A DNA stretch of 26,382 bases from a virus, in the IMG/VR virus record IMGVR_UViG_3300030202_000883, positions 1,189-27,570 of that record; one strand, 5' to 3'. The position numbers and the translations under genes are program-made. A model generated the notes under the pieces. It saw only the letters and a program-made list of their open reading frames with translations. It made no database searches and was not told the DNA's origin. Shown piece by piece: positions 11,073 to 23,680 of the stretch; the first letter of the stretch is position 1; every line of letters starts with the position of its first letter.

Positions 11073-11291
11073 ATGCTTATGGATGTAGTAGACTTTTCTA
11101 AGTACTTATACAAAGTTCTTCGTGCAAGGGAGAGTGACATTGCATTCGCTATGTCCCAAGGTAGCGTTAAAACTTGGGAAGATTACAAGATGCTTGTCGG
11201 GGAAATTCGGGGCCTTTCCCTAGTGCAAGAAGAAATCAAGACCCTGTTGGAGAGTAATCAAGACGATGTCGAAGACATTATTTCTTCCTGA
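11073..11291 (+). CDS. Small conserved phage protein, unknown
   Basis: 72 residues (or 70 from the second ATG at 11079), acidic and probably all-helical, with no membrane segment. Recognisable phrases are DVVDFSKYLYKVL, MSQGSVKTWEDYKMLVGEI and VQEEIKTLLE. The type recurs just upstream of head genes in marine phages as far as I recall. Function is not known; a small helical partner of the assembly proteins would fit. Its 3' end overlaps the co-chaperonin gene by 26 bases in another frame. Confidence 0.75.
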   Translation: MLMDVVDFSKYLYKVLRARESDIAFAMSQGSVKTWEDYKMLVGEIRGLSLVQEEIKTLLESNQDDVEDIISS

Positions 11292-11733
11292 ACATGTAGC
11301 TAAAAAAGTTAAGGACAATCGATCTAAAGACGTATCCGAAACAGCGTATGTTCCCCCTGAAGCTCGGGTGTTAGACCCTTCCCTTCTGGAAAAGACCTTG
11401 ATGGAAAGACTACCACAACCTACCGGATGGCGGGTTTTGGTCATGCCATATCAAGGAAAATCAAAGACAGCTTCTGGCCTGCATATACCGGACGAGGTTC
11501 GGGAAAGAGAAACTGTTGCTACTGTTGTGGCATATGTTCTCAAGTTGGGCCCTTTGGCATATAAGGATCAAGACAAGTTTGAAGGCACACCTTGGTGTAA
11601 AGAAGGCCAATGGGTTTGCATCGGCAGATACTCCGGATCTCGATTTAAGATCGATGGTGGAGAAGTCCGTATTCTTAATGACGATGAAGTAATCGCAACA
11701 TTGTTGGAGCCAGATGATGTCAGACATGTCTAA
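11266..11733 (+). CDS. Phage GroES-like co-chaperonin (Cpn10)
   Basis: 155 residues. Predicted lid for the host GroEL chamber, as T4 gp31 and other viral Cpn10 proteins are, helping the capsid protein fold. The Cpn10 barrel starts near residue 54 (GWRVLVMPYQGKSKTASG). Residues 64-76 match the GroES mobile loop, with the hydrophobic LHI corresponding to the GroEL-binding tripeptide. GQWVCIGRYSG and FKIDGGEVRILNDDEVIATL align with the end of the fold. About 50 extra residues precede the domain, unlike bacterial GroES (about 97 residues). It overlaps the gene before it by 26 bases and the scaffold gene after it by 20, so it is embedded in the head-assembly operon. Confidence 0.9.
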   Translation: MSKTLFLPEHVAKKVKDNRSKDVSETAYVPPEARVLDPSLLEKTLMERLPQPTGWRVLVMPYQGKSKTASGLHIPDEVRERETVATVVAYVLKLGPLAYKDQDKFEGTPWCKEGQWVCIGRYSGSRFKIDGGEVRILNDDEVIATLLEPDDVRHV

Positions 11734-13739: not shown

Positions 13740-14645
13740 ATGGCTATTTCTCGCGCACAACTAGCGAAAGAGCTAGAACCCGGCCTCAACGCTCTGTTTG
13801 GAATGGAGTACGACCGGTACGAGGGTCAACACGCAGAAATCTACACAACCGAATCTTCGGACAGAGCGTTCGAGGAAGAGGTGATGCTCAGTGGATTTGG
13901 CGCTGCGCCCACTAAAGCGGAAGGTGCAGCAATTAGTTTTGATGATGCCAACGAAGCGTACACCGCTCGTTATAATCACGAAACTCTTGCATTGGCCTTC
14001 TCGATTACGGAAGAAGCAATCGAGGACAATCTCTATGATCGTCTTGGATCTCGCTATACCAAAGCCCTTGCTCGTTCGATGGCTCACAGTAAACAAGTTA
14101 AGGCCGCTGCGGTTCTTAACAATGCGTTTACTGCGGGTGCTTCAGCAGGTGGTGACGGTAAAGCTCTCTGTGCTTCGGATCACCCACTGACTAACGGTGG
14201 AACTCTTGACAACGTGTCAGCTGCTGATTTGAACGAAACCTCTCTTGAGGACGCTCTTATCAACATCGCTGGTTTTGTTGACGAGCGTGGTCTAAAGGTT
14301 GCTCTTCGTGGTGTGAAGATGATTATCCCGCGCCAGCTACAGTTTGTAGCTCAACGGATACTCAACACTGAACTTCGGGTAGGTACTTCGGACAACGATA
14401 CAAACGCAATTCGGACTATGGGAATGTTGCCCGGTGGTTACGCCGTCAACGATTTCTTGACAGATCCAGATGCGTTCTACGTCTTGACCGATGCTCCTCG
14501 CGGGTTCATCCACTTTGAGCGGACGCCTCTTTCAACCAACATGGAAGCGGACTTCGACACTGGTAACATGCGGTTTAAAGCCCGTGAGCGTTACTCGTTT
14601 GGGTTCTCAGATCCTCGTTGCGTTTTTGGATCTCCTGGCGTATAA
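13740..14645 (+). CDS. Major capsid protein (Mu gpT-like, HK97 fold)
   Basis: 301 residues, close to the length of Mu gpT-type coat proteins. It begins ISRAQLAKELEPGLNALFG, then EYDRYEGQHAEIY and a segment HETLALAFSITEEAIEDNLY typical of the spine region. It also has ALCASDHPLTNGGTLDN, MIIPRQLQFVAQRIL, and a C-terminal MRFKARERYSFGFSDPR that matches the final beta strand of this family. It is not preceded by a visible cleavage domain. A strong ribosome binding site (AAGGAAGG, nine bases upstream) and an intrinsic terminator just downstream fit the most highly expressed virion gene. It probably folds with help from the phage co-chaperonin encoded upstream. Confidence 0.93.
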   Translation: MAISRAQLAKELEPGLNALFGMEYDRYEGQHAEIYTTESSDRAFEEEVMLSGFGAAPTKAEGAAISFDDANEAYTARYNHETLALAFSITEEAIEDNLYDRLGSRYTKALARSMAHSKQVKAAAVLNNAFTAGASAGGDGKALCASDHPLTNGGTLDNVSAADLNETSLEDALINIAGFVDERGLKVALRGVKMIIPRQLQFVAQRILNTELRVGTSDNDTNAIRTMGMLPGGYAVNDFLTDPDAFYVLTDAPRGFIHFERTPLSTNMEADFDTGNMRFKARERYSFGFSDPRCVFGSPGV

Positions 14646-14709: not shown

Positions 14710-14785
14710 TTTAAACGTATTGTACAATCACGGTATCCCTGACAGGTGCATGAAGCATCTGACTAACCCAAGACAGGAGATACTC

Positions 14786-15334
14786 ATGGGTAATTCTACT
14801 TTTTCGGGCCCAGTTCGTTCTGAAGGCGGCTTTCAAATCATATCTAAAAACGCTACAACGGGTACAGAAACCACTGTAGCAAGCACGGCTTCCACTGGTA
14901 TTGTCACTAACAAGTTTGTAAAACACGTTGGTTTTGCCTCTGGCGTTACTGTGAACACCACAGCAGGAGATAGTCCAACGATTGGTGAGTTCACACAACC
15001 AGCAAACACAATCATTACAGACATTAAGATTTTCTGTGATACCTCGCCAGTAATCGGAACAGGTGATATTGGGTATGAGGTTGGGACATCTAGCTCTGGC
15101 GCACAGATCGTTGCGGCTCAGACTGATGAAATCTTAGATGGCGGTACGACTGTTGTTGAGCATAACGTGACCGTAACCGCGTTGGTTTTGCAAACTCAGG
15201 ACGGCACTACTGCTCCAGCCTCTGTTCAGTACACCTCAGCAGAACGTACAATCTTCTGTAACATCACCAATACGGTTGACGCTACCACTGCGGGTTCGTT
15301 TACGTTCATCATTGAGTATGTGCAAATCGCATAA
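14786..15334 (+). CDS. Thr/Ser-rich probable virion protein
   Basis: 182 residues from the ATG at 14786, chosen because AGGAG at 14775-14779 is six bases upstream. The frame is open farther back, but that part overlaps the non-coding terminator region. The protein starts GNSTFSGPVRSEGGF and is rich in Thr, Ser, Ala and Val with a beta-strand pattern, with no membrane segment and a C-terminus FTFIIEYVQIA. It looks like a capsid-surface or fibre-associated protein of the sort found after capsid genes in marine phages. Function not assigned. Confidence 0.82.
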   Translation: MGNSTFSGPVRSEGGFQIISKNATTGTETTVASTASTGIVTNKFVKHVGFASGVTVNTTAGDSPTIGEFTQPANTIITDIKIFCDTSPVIGTGDIGYEVGTSSSGAQIVAAQTDEILDGGTTVVEHNVTVTALVLQTQDGTTAPASVQYTSAERTIFCNITNTVDATTAGSFTFIIEYVQIA

Positions 15335-15347
15335 ATAGGAGTGTGAG

Positions 15348-15749
15348 ATGGCTGATGCTGTAGCTACACAAACGCTTTTTGATGGCTCAAAAAAGGTCAT
15401 TCAAAAGTTCACTAACATCTCTGATGGTTCAGGCGAGTCTGCGGTAAAGAAGGTTGATGTTTCAGCGTTGGCCTCTAACTCTGACGGCACAGCCTGCACT
15501 GGAGTAGTGATAGAGCGCATCTGGTGGCAGTGTATTGGAATGAAGGTGCAAATCCTATGGGATGCAACTACTAACATTCTGTGTATTGAGCTAGGTGAAA
15601 ACCAAAGCGGCAATCATGACTACACTATCTTTGGGGGTCTGACTAATAACTCGGGTTCTGGAAAGACCGGTGACATTTTGTTTACCACGGTGGGGCATAC
15701 TAGCGCCGACACGTACACTATCATTCTTGAGATGCGTAAAGAGTACTAA
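15348..15749 (+). CDS. Conserved probable virion protein, beta-rich
   Basis: 133 residues. Phrases KFTNISDGSGESAVKKVDVS, IERIWWQCIGMKVQILWDA, LTNNSGSGKTGDILFTTVG and DTYTIILEMRK recur in a family I know only as hypothetical phage structural proteins. The predicted pattern is all beta. Ribosome binding site AGGAG lies 11 bases after the upstream gene. It probably belongs to the outer capsid or connector set by position between capsid and adaptor genes. No enzymatic motif. Confidence 0.8.
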   Translation: MADAVATQTLFDGSKKVIQKFTNISDGSGESAVKKVDVSALASNSDGTACTGVVIERIWWQCIGMKVQILWDATTNILCIELGENQSGNHDYTIFGGLTNNSGSGKTGDILFTTVGHTSADTYTIILEMRKEY

Positions 15750-15754
15750 TCGTC

Positions 15755-16030
15755 ATGGGTGATAAACCGATCAGGCGCACAAAAAAGAATTACCGCTCCA
15801 CTAAGTCTGGGGCGGGGATGACCAAGGCTGGAGTTGCGGCTCATCGAAGAGCCAACCCTGGTTCTAAGTTAAAGACTGCGGTTACCGGCAAGGTTAAGAA
15901 GGGCAGTAAGGACGCGAAGAGGCGCAAGTCTTATTGCGCTCGTTCTGCGGGACAGATGAAGAAGTTTCCGAAGGCTGCAAAGGATCCAAACAGCAGACTT
16001 CGTCAAGCAAGGAAGCGTTGGAAATGTTAG
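15755..16030 (+). CDS. Very basic small phage protein (DUF6321-like)
   Basis: 91 residues with about 31 Lys/Arg and only three acidic residues by my count, so net charge near +28. Phrases SGAGMTKAGVAAHRRANPG, SKLKTAVTGKVKKG, AKRRKSYCARSAGQMKK and DPNSRLRQARKRWKC resemble a small domain of unknown function common in marine phages; the name DUF6321 is from memory. Two cysteines (in SYCARS and at the C-terminus) are conserved-looking. Nucleic acid binding is plausible from charge alone. It opens the cluster of basic small genes and overlaps the next start by seven bases. Confidence 0.82.
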   Translation: MGDKPIRRTKKNYRSTKSGAGMTKAGVAAHRRANPGSKLKTAVTGKVKKGSKDAKRRKSYCARSAGQMKKFPKAAKDPNSRLRQARKRWKC

Positions 16031-16248
16031 GTAAGCAGTTCATAGTTATCGTGGCTACGGCCTTTATTGGCGGGGTTGGCGCGGTTACCTATAGCTGGGC
16101 AAGTTGGACAACTAAAACTTTAATTTCTGTAGATAAAAAAGCAGAGGTTATTGCATCAGAGATATCGTACATAAAGTCGTACATGGAGCGTGACTATGGC
16201 TATGTCCCGAGGGCAGATGAAACAGCAAGTGTCAAAACCACCGAGTAA
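16024..16248 (+). CDS. Small single-TM protein, unknown
   Basis: 74 residues starting at 16024, where AGGAAG lies about ten bases upstream. The frame is open before this but only as an out-of-frame reading of the previous gene. Residues 5-29 (FIVIVATAFIGGVGAVTYSW) form one clear membrane segment, followed by a short charged helix (DKKAEVIASEISYIKSYMER). The topology could suit a membrane-bound accessory of entry or lysis, but there is no recognisable family. Its last 53 bases overlap the next gene, which is reading in another frame. Confidence 0.68.
   Translation: MLGKQFIVIVATAFIGGVGAVTYSWASWTTKTLISVDKKAEVIASEISYIKSYMERDYGYVPRADETASVKTTE
16185..16188 (+). promoter_or_regulatory. GGAG ribosome binding site fixing the start of the 83-aa basic protein
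   Basis: GGAG sits seven bases before the ATG at 16196, but only one base before the GTG at 16190 that could also open the frame. The spacing favours 16196. The site lies inside the coding part of the preceding membrane protein gene. Confidence 0.6.
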
Positions 16249-16447
16249 AGAACCTAAAAATCTTGTATACTACAAGAACGGGGGTAAAGCGTCTGCTAAA
16301 TCAAAAGGCAGTAAGATATGTCCTGCGGGTAAAGCGTGGGCCAAACGCACCTTTGATACATATCCCTCTGCTTATGCGAACATGGCTGCATCTAAGTATT
16401 GCAAAGACCCAAACTATGCGAAGGGTAGTAAGAGGAAGAAGAAATGA
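16196..16447 (+). CDS. Basic small phage protein with conserved Cys motif, unknown
   Basis: 83 residues from ATG 16196 (a GTG at 16190 would add two). The N-terminal part is polar (SRGQMKQQVSKPPSKEPK), followed by YYKNGGKASAKSKGSKICPA and the recognisable block AWAKRTFDTYPSAYANMAAS with KYCKDPNY. It has two cysteines and a Lys/Arg-rich tail. The block occurs in small unknown proteins of marine phages. The role is not known; nucleic acid binding or a structural role inside the virion is conceivable. It overlaps the previous gene by 53 bases and the next by four (ATGA). Confidence 0.8.
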   Translation: MAMSRGQMKQQVSKPPSKEPKNLVYYKNGGKASAKSKGSKICPAGKAWAKRTFDTYPSAYANMAASKYCKDPNYAKGSKRKKK

Positions 16448-16575
16448 CTCTAACTAAGGGCAATAAAAAGAAAGTTAAGAAAGTTATAAAGGGTTTAAAC
16501 AAAGCCTCAAAGCTACATGCTGGGCAAGCCAAGACTTTAAAAAAGGTTGTTAATTCTTCTAGGAAGAAGGCTTAG
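16444..16575 (+). CDS. 43-residue Lys-rich protein, unknown
   Basis: A short ATG-to-TAG frame starting on the previous stop (ATGA) and ending directly before the next ATG with no gap. The product begins MTLTKGNKKKVKKVIKG and continues through KASKLHAGQAKTLKK. It has roughly 16 Lys/Arg and no acidic residues, with a helical, amphipathic pattern. The exact fit between neighbours and the similarity of composition to the flanking genes argue that it is translated. It may bind nucleic acid or the capsid interior. No family recognised with confidence. Confidence 0.72.
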   Translation: MTLTKGNKKKVKKVIKGLNKASKLHAGQAKTLKKVVNSSRKKA

Positions 16576-16959
16576 ATGGGTGAGCTAAAGAAATGGCGTG
16601 ATCAGAATTGGGTTAGGATTGGGACCGATGGTAAAATCAAGGGTAAGTGCGGTACTTCAAAAGACAAGAAGAACCCTGACCGATGTCTTCCAGCGGCTAA
16701 AGCACGTTCTCTTTCTAAAAAAGATAGAGCTGCGACTGCAAAGAAAAAAAAGTCGGCTGGCAGAAAAGGAAAAACTGTTGTCAGCAACACCAAAAAAGCC
16801 AAGGTCAAAGGATATAGTCTCGGTGGAGACATTGAAATCAACGGAGCAAAAAGGCCGTACAAAGGCAAAAGCAAAAAAGGCGAAGCGGTCGCGAAAGGCT
16901 GCGGGGCGATAATGGCCGACAGGCGCAAGACTACCAAAGGCGCAGTGCGTCAGTTTTAA
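16576..16959 (+). CDS. Basic phage protein with a CGT-KNPDRCLP small domain
   Basis: 127 residues. The N-terminal 45 residues carry LKKWRDQNWVRIGTDGKIKG, then CGTSKDKKNPDRCLPAAKA, a compact Cys-containing domain I have seen in many marine phage proteins of unknown role (possibly metal- or DNA-binding; this is a guess). A Lys-rich linker follows. The C-terminal end GCGAIMADRRKTTKGAVRQF is another recurrent phage ending. It begins immediately after the upstream stop. The full protein is strongly basic, like the four other soluble members of this cluster. Confidence 0.82.
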   Translation: MGELKKWRDQNWVRIGTDGKIKGKCGTSKDKKNPDRCLPAAKARSLSKKDRAATAKKKKSAGRKGKTVVSNTKKAKVKGYSLGGDIEINGAKRPYKGKSKKGEAVAKGCGAIMADRRKTTKGAVRQF

Positions 16960-16971
16960 AGGAGTACGGAC

Positions 16972-17424
16972 ATGAAACAACCTACAGAAGATCAAACTGG
17001 TTTGAAAAAACTGCCTAAATCGGTTCGCAACAAAATGGGCTACATGAAAAACGGTGGAAAAGTCAAAGCCAAGGGCATGGCAATGGGCGGTAAAGTAAAG
17101 TCCAAAGGTATGGCAATGGGCGGCAAAGTCAAAGCCAAAGGTATGGCAATGGGCGGTAAGGTAAAGTCCAAGGGCATGGCAATGGGCGGCAAAGTCAAAG
17201 CCAAAGGTATGGCAATGGGCGGTAAGGTAAAGTCCAAGGGCATGGCAATGGGCGGTAAAGTCAAAGCCAAAGGTATGGCAATGGGCGGTAAGGTAAAGTC
17301 CAAGGGCATGGCAATGGGTGGCAAGGTAAAGTCCAAGGGCATGGCAATGGGTGGCAAGGTTATGGGCTACAAAAACGGTGGCGCAGTAATGGTTAAAACC
17401 AACCAGAAACCACATATGAGTTAA
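16972..17424 (+). CDS. Lys/Gly/Met tandem-repeat protein, unknown
   Basis: 150 residues. A short unique N-terminus (LKKLPKSVRNKMGYMKNGG) leads into nine tandem copies of an 11-residue unit, GGKVKxKGMAM, where x alternates Ala and Ser. It then ends VMGYKNGGAVMVKTNQKP. The charge is strongly positive, with only one Glu and one Asp near the start. It is preceded by a good ribosome binding site (AAAGGAG, seven bases). Extended repeated basic proteins of this kind occur in marine phage contigs in my recollection, without known activity. DNA compaction, packaging within the head, or a flexible basic filament are possible roles, all inferred. No membrane segment or cysteine. Confidence 0.85.
   Translation: MKQPTEDQTGLKKLPKSVRNKMGYMKNGGKVKAKGMAMGGKVKSKGMAMGGKVKAKGMAMGGKVKSKGMAMGGKVKAKGMAMGGKVKSKGMAMGGKVKAKGMAMGGKVKSKGMAMGGKVKSKGMAMGGKVMGYKNGGAVMVKTNQKPHMS
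17053..17349 (+). repeat. Nine 33-bp tandem coding repeats arranged as 66-bp pairs
   Basis: Each 33-bp unit encodes GGKVKxKGMAM. Units of the Ala type always use GTC AAA GCC and units of the Ser type GTA AAG TCC in the middle. The order is A,S,A,S,A,S,A,S,S, so the duplicated element is a 66-bp A-S pair plus one extra S unit. Units 3-4 and 5-6 are identical by eye, pointing to recent expansion. Confidence 0.93.
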
Positions 17425-17428
17425 GGCC

Positions 17429-18094
17429 ATGACAGTATCAGGATCCAGGGACTTCAACCTCGATGTCGGTGAGGTCATCGAAGAAGCATACGAACGCTGC
17501 GGGATTGAAGTTCGCACTGGGTATGATGCTCGTACCGCTCGTAGATCGTTAAACCTTATGTTCGCTGATTGGGCGAACAGGGGCATTAACATGTGGACGG
17601 TCAAATCAGAAACGGTAACTTTAACGCAAGGAACTAGCGCAGTAACGTTGGCCGCGGACGTTGTTGATGTCTTAGAGATTGTGTTGCGCCGCGACGGAAC
17701 AGACTTTGAGATTACAAGAATTAGTCGTGGGGAGTACGTCACTCTTCCCGACAAGACTACTCAGGGTCGGCCTAGCCAGTTTTATTTTGATCGTCAGATT
17801 ACGCCTATCTTAAATCTTTGGGCAACACCTGAAAACTCTACCGATCAACTGGTTTATCATTATGTTCGTCGCATTGATGATGCAGATACGCTGGTTAATA
17901 CAACCGATATGCCGTTTAGGTTTTATCCTTGTATGGTAGCTGGCTTGGCGTATTACATTGCAATGAAGAGAACGCCAGATCGTATTCAAATGCTAAAGAC
18001 TGTCTATGAGGAGGAGTTCCAAAGAGCGTCTGATGAGGATGAGGACCGAGTTCCGTTAAAGTTACAGCCTAGCTTCCAATACTTGAGGGTTTAG
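17429..18094 (+). CDS. Head-tail adaptor (P22 gp4 / T7 gp11-like)
   Basis: 221 residues. Predicted ring protein that attaches below the portal and closes the filled head. The N-terminal helices (DVGEVIEEAYERCGIEVRTG, then ARTARRSLNLMFADWANRGI) are the typical opening of these adaptors. A beta region follows (SETVTLTQGTSAVTLAADVVD), then RPSQFYFDRQITPILNLWA, and a helical end (FYPCMVAGLAYYIAMKRTPD). The long gap between portal and adaptor genes, filled by lysis and basic genes, is unusual in order but not in content. Only the short spacer AAGG precedes the ATG. The exact subfamily was not tested. Confidence 0.8.
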   Translation: MTVSGSRDFNLDVGEVIEEAYERCGIEVRTGYDARTARRSLNLMFADWANRGINMWTVKSETVTLTQGTSAVTLAADVVDVLEIVLRRDGTDFEITRISRGEYVTLPDKTTQGRPSQFYFDRQITPILNLWATPENSTDQLVYHYVRRIDDADTLVNTTDMPFRFYPCMVAGLAYYIAMKRTPDRIQMLKTVYEEEFQRASDEDEDRVPLKLQPSFQYLRV

Positions 18095-21901: not shown

Positions 21902-23680
21902 ATGAGTTTTGGCTATCAAGTTCTAGGTTTCGGTGCTTTTGCAAGTAGAGGTGATTCAATAAATGCCTTTGGTGGTATTAAAACTATTAGCGGTGATTAC
22001 ACTATCCACACTTTTACTAGCAGTGGCACTTTTACCGTTACCTCTGGAAGTGCCGAAGTAGAATATTTGGTTATCGCCGGTGGTGGTGGCGGTGGACGTG
22101 GTTATAGCGGTGGGGCTGGTGCTGGTGGTTATCGTTCCTCTGTAACGGGCGAATCATCTGGCGGCGGCGCAAGTGCGGAGAGCGCACTTGCTGTTTCTTC
22201 TGGTGATTACACAGTTACCATTGGCGGCGGAGGAACAATTCCAAGCAACGGGACAATGTCAAAAGGCGGTAATGGCTCTGATTCTGTTTTTGGAAGTATT
22301 ACTTCAGTTGGTGGCGGCGGCAGCGGTGCGTACTACGGCGACATTATCAACTCCACTAATGCTGCCCAATCGGGCGGTTCTGGCGGTGGTGGTGGTGGAA
22401 CCAACACAATAACATCATCCGGAGCATCTGGTACATCTGGTCAAGGGTATGCTGGTGGTACTGGTACTAGTTCCAACAATCCTTGGGGTGGCGCTGGCGG
22501 AGGCGGCGGTGCAAGTCAAGCCGGTGCAAATGGGACAACTTCAAAAGGCGGTGATGGCGGTGACGGTGTTGCCTCTTCTATTACCGGTTCTTCTGTTACT
22601 CGCGCTGGCGGCGGCGGCGGCGGTATTGGTCAAGACGGTGGAGCGAGTATATCTCGCGGCGATGGCGGCGCTGGCGGCGGCGGGTATGGCGCAGTCACTA
22701 CAACAACGGGTATCGCTGGAACAGTTAATACTGGTAGCGGCGGCGGCGGTGCTGGCGGTAACGGAGCAGGAGCAAACTCGAACGGCGGGAATCCCGGAAC
22801 AGGTGGCTCTGGTATAGCTATTCTGCGGTATTTAACTCCACCAGCAGTTGCCTACACAGCCACTTATCTTGTTGTTGCTGGTGGCGGCGCAGGTGCATAT
22901 TTTGGAGGCGGCGGTGGTGGTGCTGGTGGGCTTCTTTCGGGAACAGCTTCTGCCACACTAACCGCAGGTCAACAATATACTATTACTGTAGGTGCTGGTG
23001 GGGGACAGGCTAGTAACGGCAGCAACTCGGTATTTAGTGGGTCAGGAATTACAACTATTACAGCCACGGGTGGTGGACGAGGCGGTGCAGGTTTTTCAAA
23101 TGGGGCTGCTGGCACTGGTCAGGACGGTGGCTCTGGTGGTGGTGGCGGTCAATATCAAAATGCTACGGTTAATGGTCTTAACGGATCAGGCACATCTGGG
23201 CAGGGTAATGATGGTGGCATTGGCCTCACCGATAATTCCACATTCCGATCAGGTGGTGGTGGAGGTGGTGCTGGTTCTGCTGGTACAAACTCATCTGGTT
23301 CTGGAGGTGGCTCAGGCGCGGCAGGTAATGGCGGCTCAGGCACAGCTAATTCAATTACAGGTAGTTCTGTAACTTACGCTGGTGGCGGTGGAGGTGGTTC
23401 TGCTGATAATGGTGGTACTCATACTGGTGGCACAGCTTCTGGGGGTGGAGGTGCTGGTGCAAGCAACAGTGGCAATGGAGCAGCAGGAACTGCTAATACA
23501 GGCGGCGGCGGCGGCGGTGGTGGCGTTGAAACACACGGCAGTATTGGGGGATCAGGTGTAGTTGTCATAACTGTCCCCGCAAACAGATTTACTGGAACTG
23601 TCACTGGTAGCCCAACCATCACTTCAGTTGAAGATACTGTTATAATGAAATTTACTAGCTCAGGGACATATACAGCATGA
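21902..23680 (+). CDS. Glycine-rich tail adhesin with two tandem Gly-rich modules
   Basis: 592 residues, dominated by poly-Gly runs split by Ser, Thr, Ala and Asn. After an N-terminus (GYQVLGFGAFASRGDSINAF) and a strand TIHTFTSSGTFTV, module 1 spans about 54-310 (EYLVIAGGGG to GSGIAILRY). Module 2 spans about 321-558 (TYLVVAGGGAG to GSGVVVITV). Each contains SITGSSVTxAGGGGGG and a Gly-rich stretch with AGTxNTG. The protein ends IMKFTSSGTYTA, echoing its N-terminal strand. Gly-rich phage adhesins of this type form packed polyglycine helices at fibre tips and contact host receptors through exposed loops. Placement among fibre genes agrees. The next gene overlaps by four bases. Confidence 0.87.
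   Translation: MSFGYQVLGFGAFASRGDSINAFGGIKTISGDYTIHTFTSSGTFTVTSGSAEVEYLVIAGGGGGGRGYSGGAGAGGYRSSVTGESSGGGASAESALAVSSGDYTVTIGGGGTIPSNGTMSKGGNGSDSVFGSITSVGGGGSGAYYGDIINSTNAAQSGGSGGGGGGTNTITSSGASGTSGQGYAGGTGTSSNNPWGGAGGGGGASQAGANGTTSKGGDGGDGVASSITGSSVTRAGGGGGGIGQDGGASISRGDGGAGGGGYGAVTTTTGIAGTVNTGSGGGGAGGNGAGANSNGGNPGTGGSGIAILRYLTPPAVAYTATYLVVAGGGAGAYFGGGGGGAGGLLSGTASATLTAGQQYTITVGAGGGQASNGSNSVFSGSGITTITATGGGRGGAGFSNGAAGTGQDGGSGGGGGQYQNATVNGLNGSGTSGQGNDGGIGLTDNSTFRSGGGGGGAGSAGTNSSGSGGGSGAAGNGGSGTANSITGSSVTYAGGGGGGSADNGGTHTGGTASGGGGAGASNSGNGAAGTANTGGGGGGGGVETHGSIGGSGVVVITVPANRFTGTVTGSPTITSVEDTVIMKFTSSGTYTA

Follow-up and report, generated by a model that had tools for sequence, protein, structure and literature searches.

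The cluster described here comprises six genes at positions 15755–17424 of a 26,382-nucleotide stretch of DNA (hereafter the window), which makes up most of a 27.6-kb IMG/VR virus record (IMGVR_UViG_3300030202_000883) from a marine virus of bacteria. Judged by its head and tail genes, the source looks like a podovirus-like, short-tailed phage that is not T4-like. The window encodes, in order, a terminase, a portal, a Cpn10-like protein, the capsid protein, two small acidic proteins, the cluster and two SU10-type adaptors. The six cluster genes and the capsid, acidic-protein and adaptor genes that flank them are on the plus strand. The cluster thus sits between capsid/decoration genes and a head-tail adaptor gene: its upstream anchor is the major capsid protein (13740–14645; phrog_371, 5.4e-24; PF25209, 4.8e-12), followed by two proteins of unknown function (14783–15334 and 15348–15749; together 14783–15749), acidic by their charges and located in the slot of the “cement protein” of phage DSL-LC04, and its downstream anchor is an SU10-type head-tail adaptor (17429–18094; PF24175, 1.9e-12). 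The freshwater phage DSL-LC04 has the same gene order as the window, with the adaptor annotated as “Pam1 adaptor protein”. Elsewhere in the window, a Cpn10/GroES-like protein (11266–11733; PF00166, E 2.8e-10) is encoded among the head genes and retained in many relatives, a perfect CTCCTA hexamer repeat (8.7 copies) occupies positions 7–58 at the window start, and a 592-aa protein with 34% Gly and a Gly_rich_2 domain (21902–23680) is likely a tail or fibre protein.

As originally predicted, six tightly packed ORFs were found in this structural region. They are p1 (15755–16030, 91 aa, net charge +28), p2 (16024–16248, 74 aa), p3 (16196–16447, 83 aa), p4 (16444–16575, 43 aa), p5 (16576–16959, 127 aa) and p6 (16972–17424, 150 aa). 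Neighbouring ORFs overlap or are separated by gaps of at most 12 nt, with p2 and p3 standing out by a 53-nt overlap. Net charge per residue is +0.31, 0.00, +0.22, +0.35, +0.23 and +0.24 from p1 to p6, which confirms that five of the proteins are extremely basic (+0.22 to +0.35). These five (p1 and p3–p6) contain 25–35% K+R and have pI values of 10.2–11.8. All other listed genes of the window have a net charge per residue of at most +0.05, and the charge of the five basic proteins is therefore far from chance. The accompanying claim that they have almost no acidic residues needs correction for p5 (8% D+E), and the recurring Cys blocks attributed to the set occur only in p1, p3 and p5, p4 and p6 having no Cys at all. 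In relatives, dN/dS is 0.35 for p2, 0.20 for p4, 0.15 for p5 and 0.07 for p6, and for p1 and p3 pN is 0.12–0.14 versus a saturated pS of ~0.8. Judging by this strong bias toward synonymous substitutions, p1–p6 are real genes under purifying selection.

The first protein, p1, carries a C-terminal CAR...RWKC motif and belongs to the Pfam family DUF6321 (PF19846; 44.1 bits against a cut-off of 28.5); it also matches phrog_10346 (2e-24). Its AF2 model, which is of fair confidence (pLDDT 83.7), is a small helical domain that resembles the DUF6321 domains of cyanophage proteins in BFVD (TM 0.6–0.7, rmsd about 2 Å), including that of a virion protein of phage S-SCSM1. Neither p1 nor p5 (whose AF2 model is confident only over about residues 1–65) had a structural match in the PDB, and their profiles had no sequence match there. 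Searches of the accessible literature for DUF6321 returned nothing. In most of the inspected loci that lack p1, its slot is filled by a different basic protein of 81 aa (RFGDANMTIKK...RRKSFRARHGC...YWSCKxW; L229:3548-3793, L261:3310-3555, L268:9098-9343 and others). This protein scored E 0.03–0.17 against the giant-virus family DUF5754, under the cut-off, so that the identification was not adopted and remains a lead. The cultured flavobacterium Nonlabens xiamenensis 1Q3 also has a DUF6321-like match, on one of its contigs (188 kb; locus L456).

The p3 and p5 proteins match phrog_27331 (1.6e-25) and phrog_23735 (7.8e-26), respectively. Behind an N-terminal leader (MAMSRGQMKQQVSKPPSK), p3 has a C...YPSAYAN...C domain, and p5 combines a W...CGTSK..PDRCLP domain with a KG-rich tail that contains a GCGA motif. 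In DSL-LC04, the protein in the p3 slot weakly matches positions 1–39 of DUF5872 (PF19197) and the protein in the p5 slot matches positions 53–106, both below the cut-off, and the p5-slot protein of another relative (L236:3486-3770) matches positions 49–111 well above it (4e-15; 56.9 bits versus 27.5). As relatives of p3 and p5 match successive parts of the family, DUF5872 looks like p3 joined to p5. The window proteins themselves did not match the PF19197 model, and direct membership was rejected because the Pfam cut-off was not reached; since the L236 protein passes it, we describe p3 and p5 as related to DUF5872, not as members. The accessible literature on DUF5872 yielded a single genome annotation, in Chrysochromulina parva virus, a giant virus that infects a haptophyte alga (PMC12085832). 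Calling the cluster undescribed was therefore too strong, given that p1 is DUF6321 and p3/p5 correspond to DUF5872, although both families are of unknown function.

The Cys blocks had been suggested to bind zinc. Both Cys of the p3 pair are present in 178 of 237 members, 42 have the pair in a second register and 15 have none. There are one invariant and one nearly invariant Cys in p1 and two invariant Cys in p5, and neither protein has a conserved His. With two conserved Cys per domain, no conserved His and a p3 pair that is sometimes absent, the zinc reading is unsupported, and a simple zinc finger, which needs four conserved Cys/His ligands in each domain, was rejected. For the paired Cys of p3, a disulfide or a dispensable structural role would fit better, and zinc could conceivably be shared between two chains.

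The p3 leader (window 16196–16249) follows a conserved pattern, M.SRxQMxxQ[VI]SxPP. Among loci chosen by this motif, it is in frame with p3 in 37 and forms a separate ORF that overlaps p3 in another frame at a constant offset in 16 (L229:3971-4171 and 15 others); elsewhere it lies ahead of other basic bodies. Of the three frames in these motif-selected loci, that of the leader shows the strongest conservation, with variation mainly at third positions. The leader may be a targeting peptide or a sign of frameshifting.

The other three genes are less uniform. The embedded single-TM protein of the original prediction is p2, which has one 19-residue hydrophobic stretch (residues 6–24, mean Kyte-Doolittle 1.93), a short hydrophilic tail and a conserved TLIxVDKRTEVM motif. 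Alignment shows that its slot is retained in relatives, and p2 was recognised in 25 of 107 loci. The short p4 protein consists of a module with the consensus VIKGLxKASKxHAxQAKxLK and has 73 homologues; the module was also detected in cyanophage multi-module proteins (E 3.5e-5 versus 3.7 for the best decoy). Finally, p6 is Lys/Gly-rich and contains a tandem repeat (17059–17360) with a 66-bp DNA period and 93% matches, encoding an 11-residue GKVKxKGMAMG unit. The idea that each basic protein has its own domain thus fails for p6, which is essentially this repeat.

To assess conservation of the cluster, we searched 231 de-duplicated contigs with per-gene HMMs, of which 107 loci span capsid to adaptor. 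In 63 of these p1, p3 and p5 are all present, always in the order p1-p3-p5 (63/63), and a further 28 have only p3 and p5; most spanning loci were retrieved via matches to the cluster genes themselves, which biases these co-occurrence counts. Among 39 loci retrieved by the capsid protein alone (not de-duplicated), p5 occurs in 31, p3 in 29, p2 in 16, p1 in 14, p6 in 12 and p4 in 4. Loci retrieved by p1 alone from bacterial genome assemblies, namely MAGs and single-cell genomes of SAR11, other Alphaproteobacteria and a Flavobacterium, often have p3 and p5 alongside. The p1-p3-p5 order recurs in DSL-LC04, and many phages have an alternative arrangement in which a p3-p5-p1 block lies between the portal and Cpn10 genes. 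This co-occurrence and block relocation indicate that p1, p3 and p5 tend to travel together and that p2, p4 and p6 are optional. In IMG/VR scans, p1, p3 and p5 each matched at least 600 stretches. Cultured phages in which the modules are separate genes include Pelagibacter phages HTVC023P and HTVC027P of strain HTCC1062. Based on these comparisons, p1-p3-p5 form a unit that is conserved across hundreds of phages from marine and freshwater settings, with p2, p4 and p6 attached more loosely. Conservation as a unit, the check first suggested for the cluster, thus supports the original prediction, and among the members only p2, p4 and p6 scatter independently.

The same modules occur in fused form in T4-like cyanophages, where DUF6321 frequently forms the C-terminal end of a longer protein whose gene commonly lies between or next to those of the terminase. 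Across reference and IMG/VR contigs, 40 cyanophage ORFs hold p5-, p3- and p1-type domains, in this order in 39, as counted with HMMs that had been widened with cyanophage sequences. Strict HMMs, built from first-round matches in loci gathered before any cyanophage record and run alongside 8840 shuffled decoys, detected DUF6321 in 12 targets (E ≤ 1e-14), p5 in three targets at ~1e-4 or better and one at 0.0075, and p3 in one target at 7e-5, with one decoy at 0.06. Broader profiles, limited to IMG/VR members but with membership influenced by the widened search, yielded seven targets for p3 (E < 1e-13) and four for p5 (E < 1e-4), and the matches listed include no decoy. The cyanophage correspondence of p3 and p5 thus rests partly on widened profiles. 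One IMG/VR protein of 1076 aa combines p5, p3 and DUF6321 domains with a pair of weak p4-like repeats. In the T7-like phage P-SCSP1d, the DUF6321 gene likewise lies between the capsid and tail-tube genes. Separately, the gene for a protein of 1006 aa that contains p3-type and p4-type modules (L323:3405-6425; P-TIM68 AIR93496) adjoins a cytidylyltransferase gene, and cytidylyltransferase has been reported in virions of several cyanophages.

Some of these fused proteins have been detected in virus particles. Mass spectrometry of purified S-CREM2 virions identified ORF137 by 4 unique peptides at 4.1% coverage and ORF160 by 7 at 13.1% (PMC10665884, Table 3); in our domain scan, ORF137 ends in DUF6321 and ORF160 has p5- and p3-type domains. 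The authors of that study noted that some of the regulatory proteins detected may be contaminants (PMC10665884). S-SCSM1_29, which has all three modules, is tagged “virion protein” in its sequence record. The tags in this record mark structural proteins and not terminases, a pattern that matches the mass spectrometry study PMC9602691 in the portion of that source available to us. The DUF6321 protein SSZBM1_192 was not seen in the accessible part of the S-SZBM1 virion mass spectrometry table, and the P-SCSP1u cryo-EM paper does not mention mass spectrometry, core or internal proteins. The original prediction that the proteins are packaged hence gains from the virion association of homologous modules in S-CREM2 and S-SCSM1, and this association concerns cyanophage homologues only: large proteins from another phage group in which the modules are wholly or partly fused, detected at low coverage.

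T4 internal proteins are basic and abundant, rely on an N-terminal capsid-targeting sequence for packaging and in many cases are ejected (PMC9026906). In the T4 record, IPII and IPIII start with MKTYQEFIAEA and IPI with MKTFKEFT. Capsid-targeting-like starts of this type were found in 7 of 85 cyanophage DUF6321 proteins versus 22 of 3239 other ORFs (p = 5.5e-6, a value that serves only as a guide because some of the sequences had already been seen when the pattern was drawn up and related contigs are non-independent). Of those 22 ORFs, most immediately follow a DUF6321 gene (15 neighbours of this kind). An MKTYQEF-like start, which in T4 is cleaved off by gp21, is absent from all six window proteins; the conserved leader of p3 is of another type. 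A protein of ~105 aa with a T4-IP-like start (MKSFQQFLSESVNI...) often directly follows the cyanophage DUF6321 gene (L312:5362-5682, L336:5242-5571, L328:3576-3890 and others) and is possibly a further packaged protein.

We consider it somewhat better than an even bet that the cluster is a cassette of late genes whose small, basic products become virion proteins packed inside the head with the genome, in the manner of T4 internal proteins. Because their homologues occur as linked modules in other ocean phages, some of them in purified particles, p1 and p3–p5 are probably packed with the DNA. In such a scheme, p1, p3, p4 and p5 would represent four separate small modules, each with its own gene (an “exploded” set), matching the modules that T4-like cyanophages string together in long proteins of the virion. 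The cassette proteins would be produced late and enter the head together with the genome or ahead of it. Their strong positive charge would offset that of the DNA, and some may be released along with it at infection. The membrane protein p2 and the charged repeat protein p6 would be accessory. Particle association of the cassette proteins is supported via their homologues; we infer their presence in the virion of the window phage, an interior position, contact with DNA and ejection.

Several other readings were weighed against this one. The proteins might be carried in the virion chiefly as ejected effectors that act in the host on host nucleases or nucleic acids, as do T4 IPI or Alt. T4 packages and ejects its small, basic internal proteins, one of which, IPI, is an inhibitor of a restriction enzyme (PMC9026906), S-CREM2 virions also contain a SAM hydrolase and a kinase (PMC10665884), and the replacement of p1 by the 81-aa protein in some relatives is as expected in an arms race. 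However, the cores of p1, p3 and p5 show strong conservation even between distant phages, unlike typical arms-race genes, enzymatic residues are not visible, and a known defence or counter-defence family was rejected, with no match in PADLOC (up to E = 1) or NCBIfam; we regard this reading as unlikely. It is quite unlikely that the modules are external or connector accessories on the neck, tail or fibres and not in the head interior: contact with packaged DNA is the easier explanation for the extreme basic charge across unrelated sequences, the cement-like and tail proteins nearby are acidic, and a minority of the cyanophage members have T4-like capsid-targeting starts, even though the S-SCSM1 fused protein is encoded beside tail-fibre genes, the window cluster adjoins an adaptor gene and paired Cys would be in keeping with an exposed domain stabilised by a disulfide.

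The low S-CREM2 peptide counts and the position of the modules beside terminase genes in T4-like cyanophages could also point to late factors that assist assembly or packaging on DNA or proheads and are then lost or kept in traces. Yet module-bearing proteins were present in two virion preparations and the S-SCSM1 terminases are untagged, which makes such a role improbable. Least plausible, and in our judgement barely tenable, is a lysis or antimicrobial cassette with a holin-like p2 and cationic peptides that attack membranes. It would draw on the one TM segment of p2 and on p4, which is short and cationic and matches an antimicrobial model at chance level (E 2.5), whereas in other phages the core proteins occur as domains within fused virion proteins, the M15 peptidase encoded in the window is far away from the cluster, and p2 is confined to a minority of the spanning loci.

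Beyond the reading of the cassette as packaged head proteins, we tentatively suggest, as a doubtful extension, that several kinds of tailed phages and some algal giant viruses draw on a common set of small, basic modules of the virion (DUF6321, both halves of DUF5872, p4 and perhaps a DUF5754-like module), shuffled between separate genes and long fusions, that form nucleoprotein with the packaged genome. Genes of the p1, p3 and p5 types are common unknowns in marine viromes, and the present analysis connects them with one another, with cyanophage fusion proteins of the virion and with a family from an algal giant virus. Several families of unknown function are thereby brought under one testable idea, in which they are small proteins of the virion with a role in handling the packaged DNA. 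Were this so, tailed phages lacking a T4-type core would have internal head proteins of their own.

Compared with known families, p1 is a member of DUF6321 (PF19846; phrog_10346/4689/727) and shares its predicted fold, but is a stand-alone cassette gene, whereas in cyanophages the domain often ends a longer protein. The first and second parts of DUF5872 resemble the p3 and p5 domains, respectively, which are encoded by two separate genes in the window. The cyanophage T4-GC119 proteins between gp16 and gp17 (S-SM1 SSM1_115, S-BM3 SBM3_00185) and S-SCSM1_29 have the same p5-, p3- and p1-type modules, in one long fusion near the terminase genes as opposed to separate genes adjoining the capsid gene. 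The T4 internal proteins differ in that no sequence homology was seen in the mature domains, their net charge is +0.02 to +0.05 per residue versus +0.22 to +0.35 in the window proteins, and the window proteins lack a T4-type leader in a phage that is not T4-like. Nevertheless, IPI, IPII and IPIII are likewise small basic proteins, several per phage, and some cyanophage DUF6321 proteins and the products of the next downstream gene start with MKTFKQ[YF], close to the MKTYQEF/MKTFKEF of T4.
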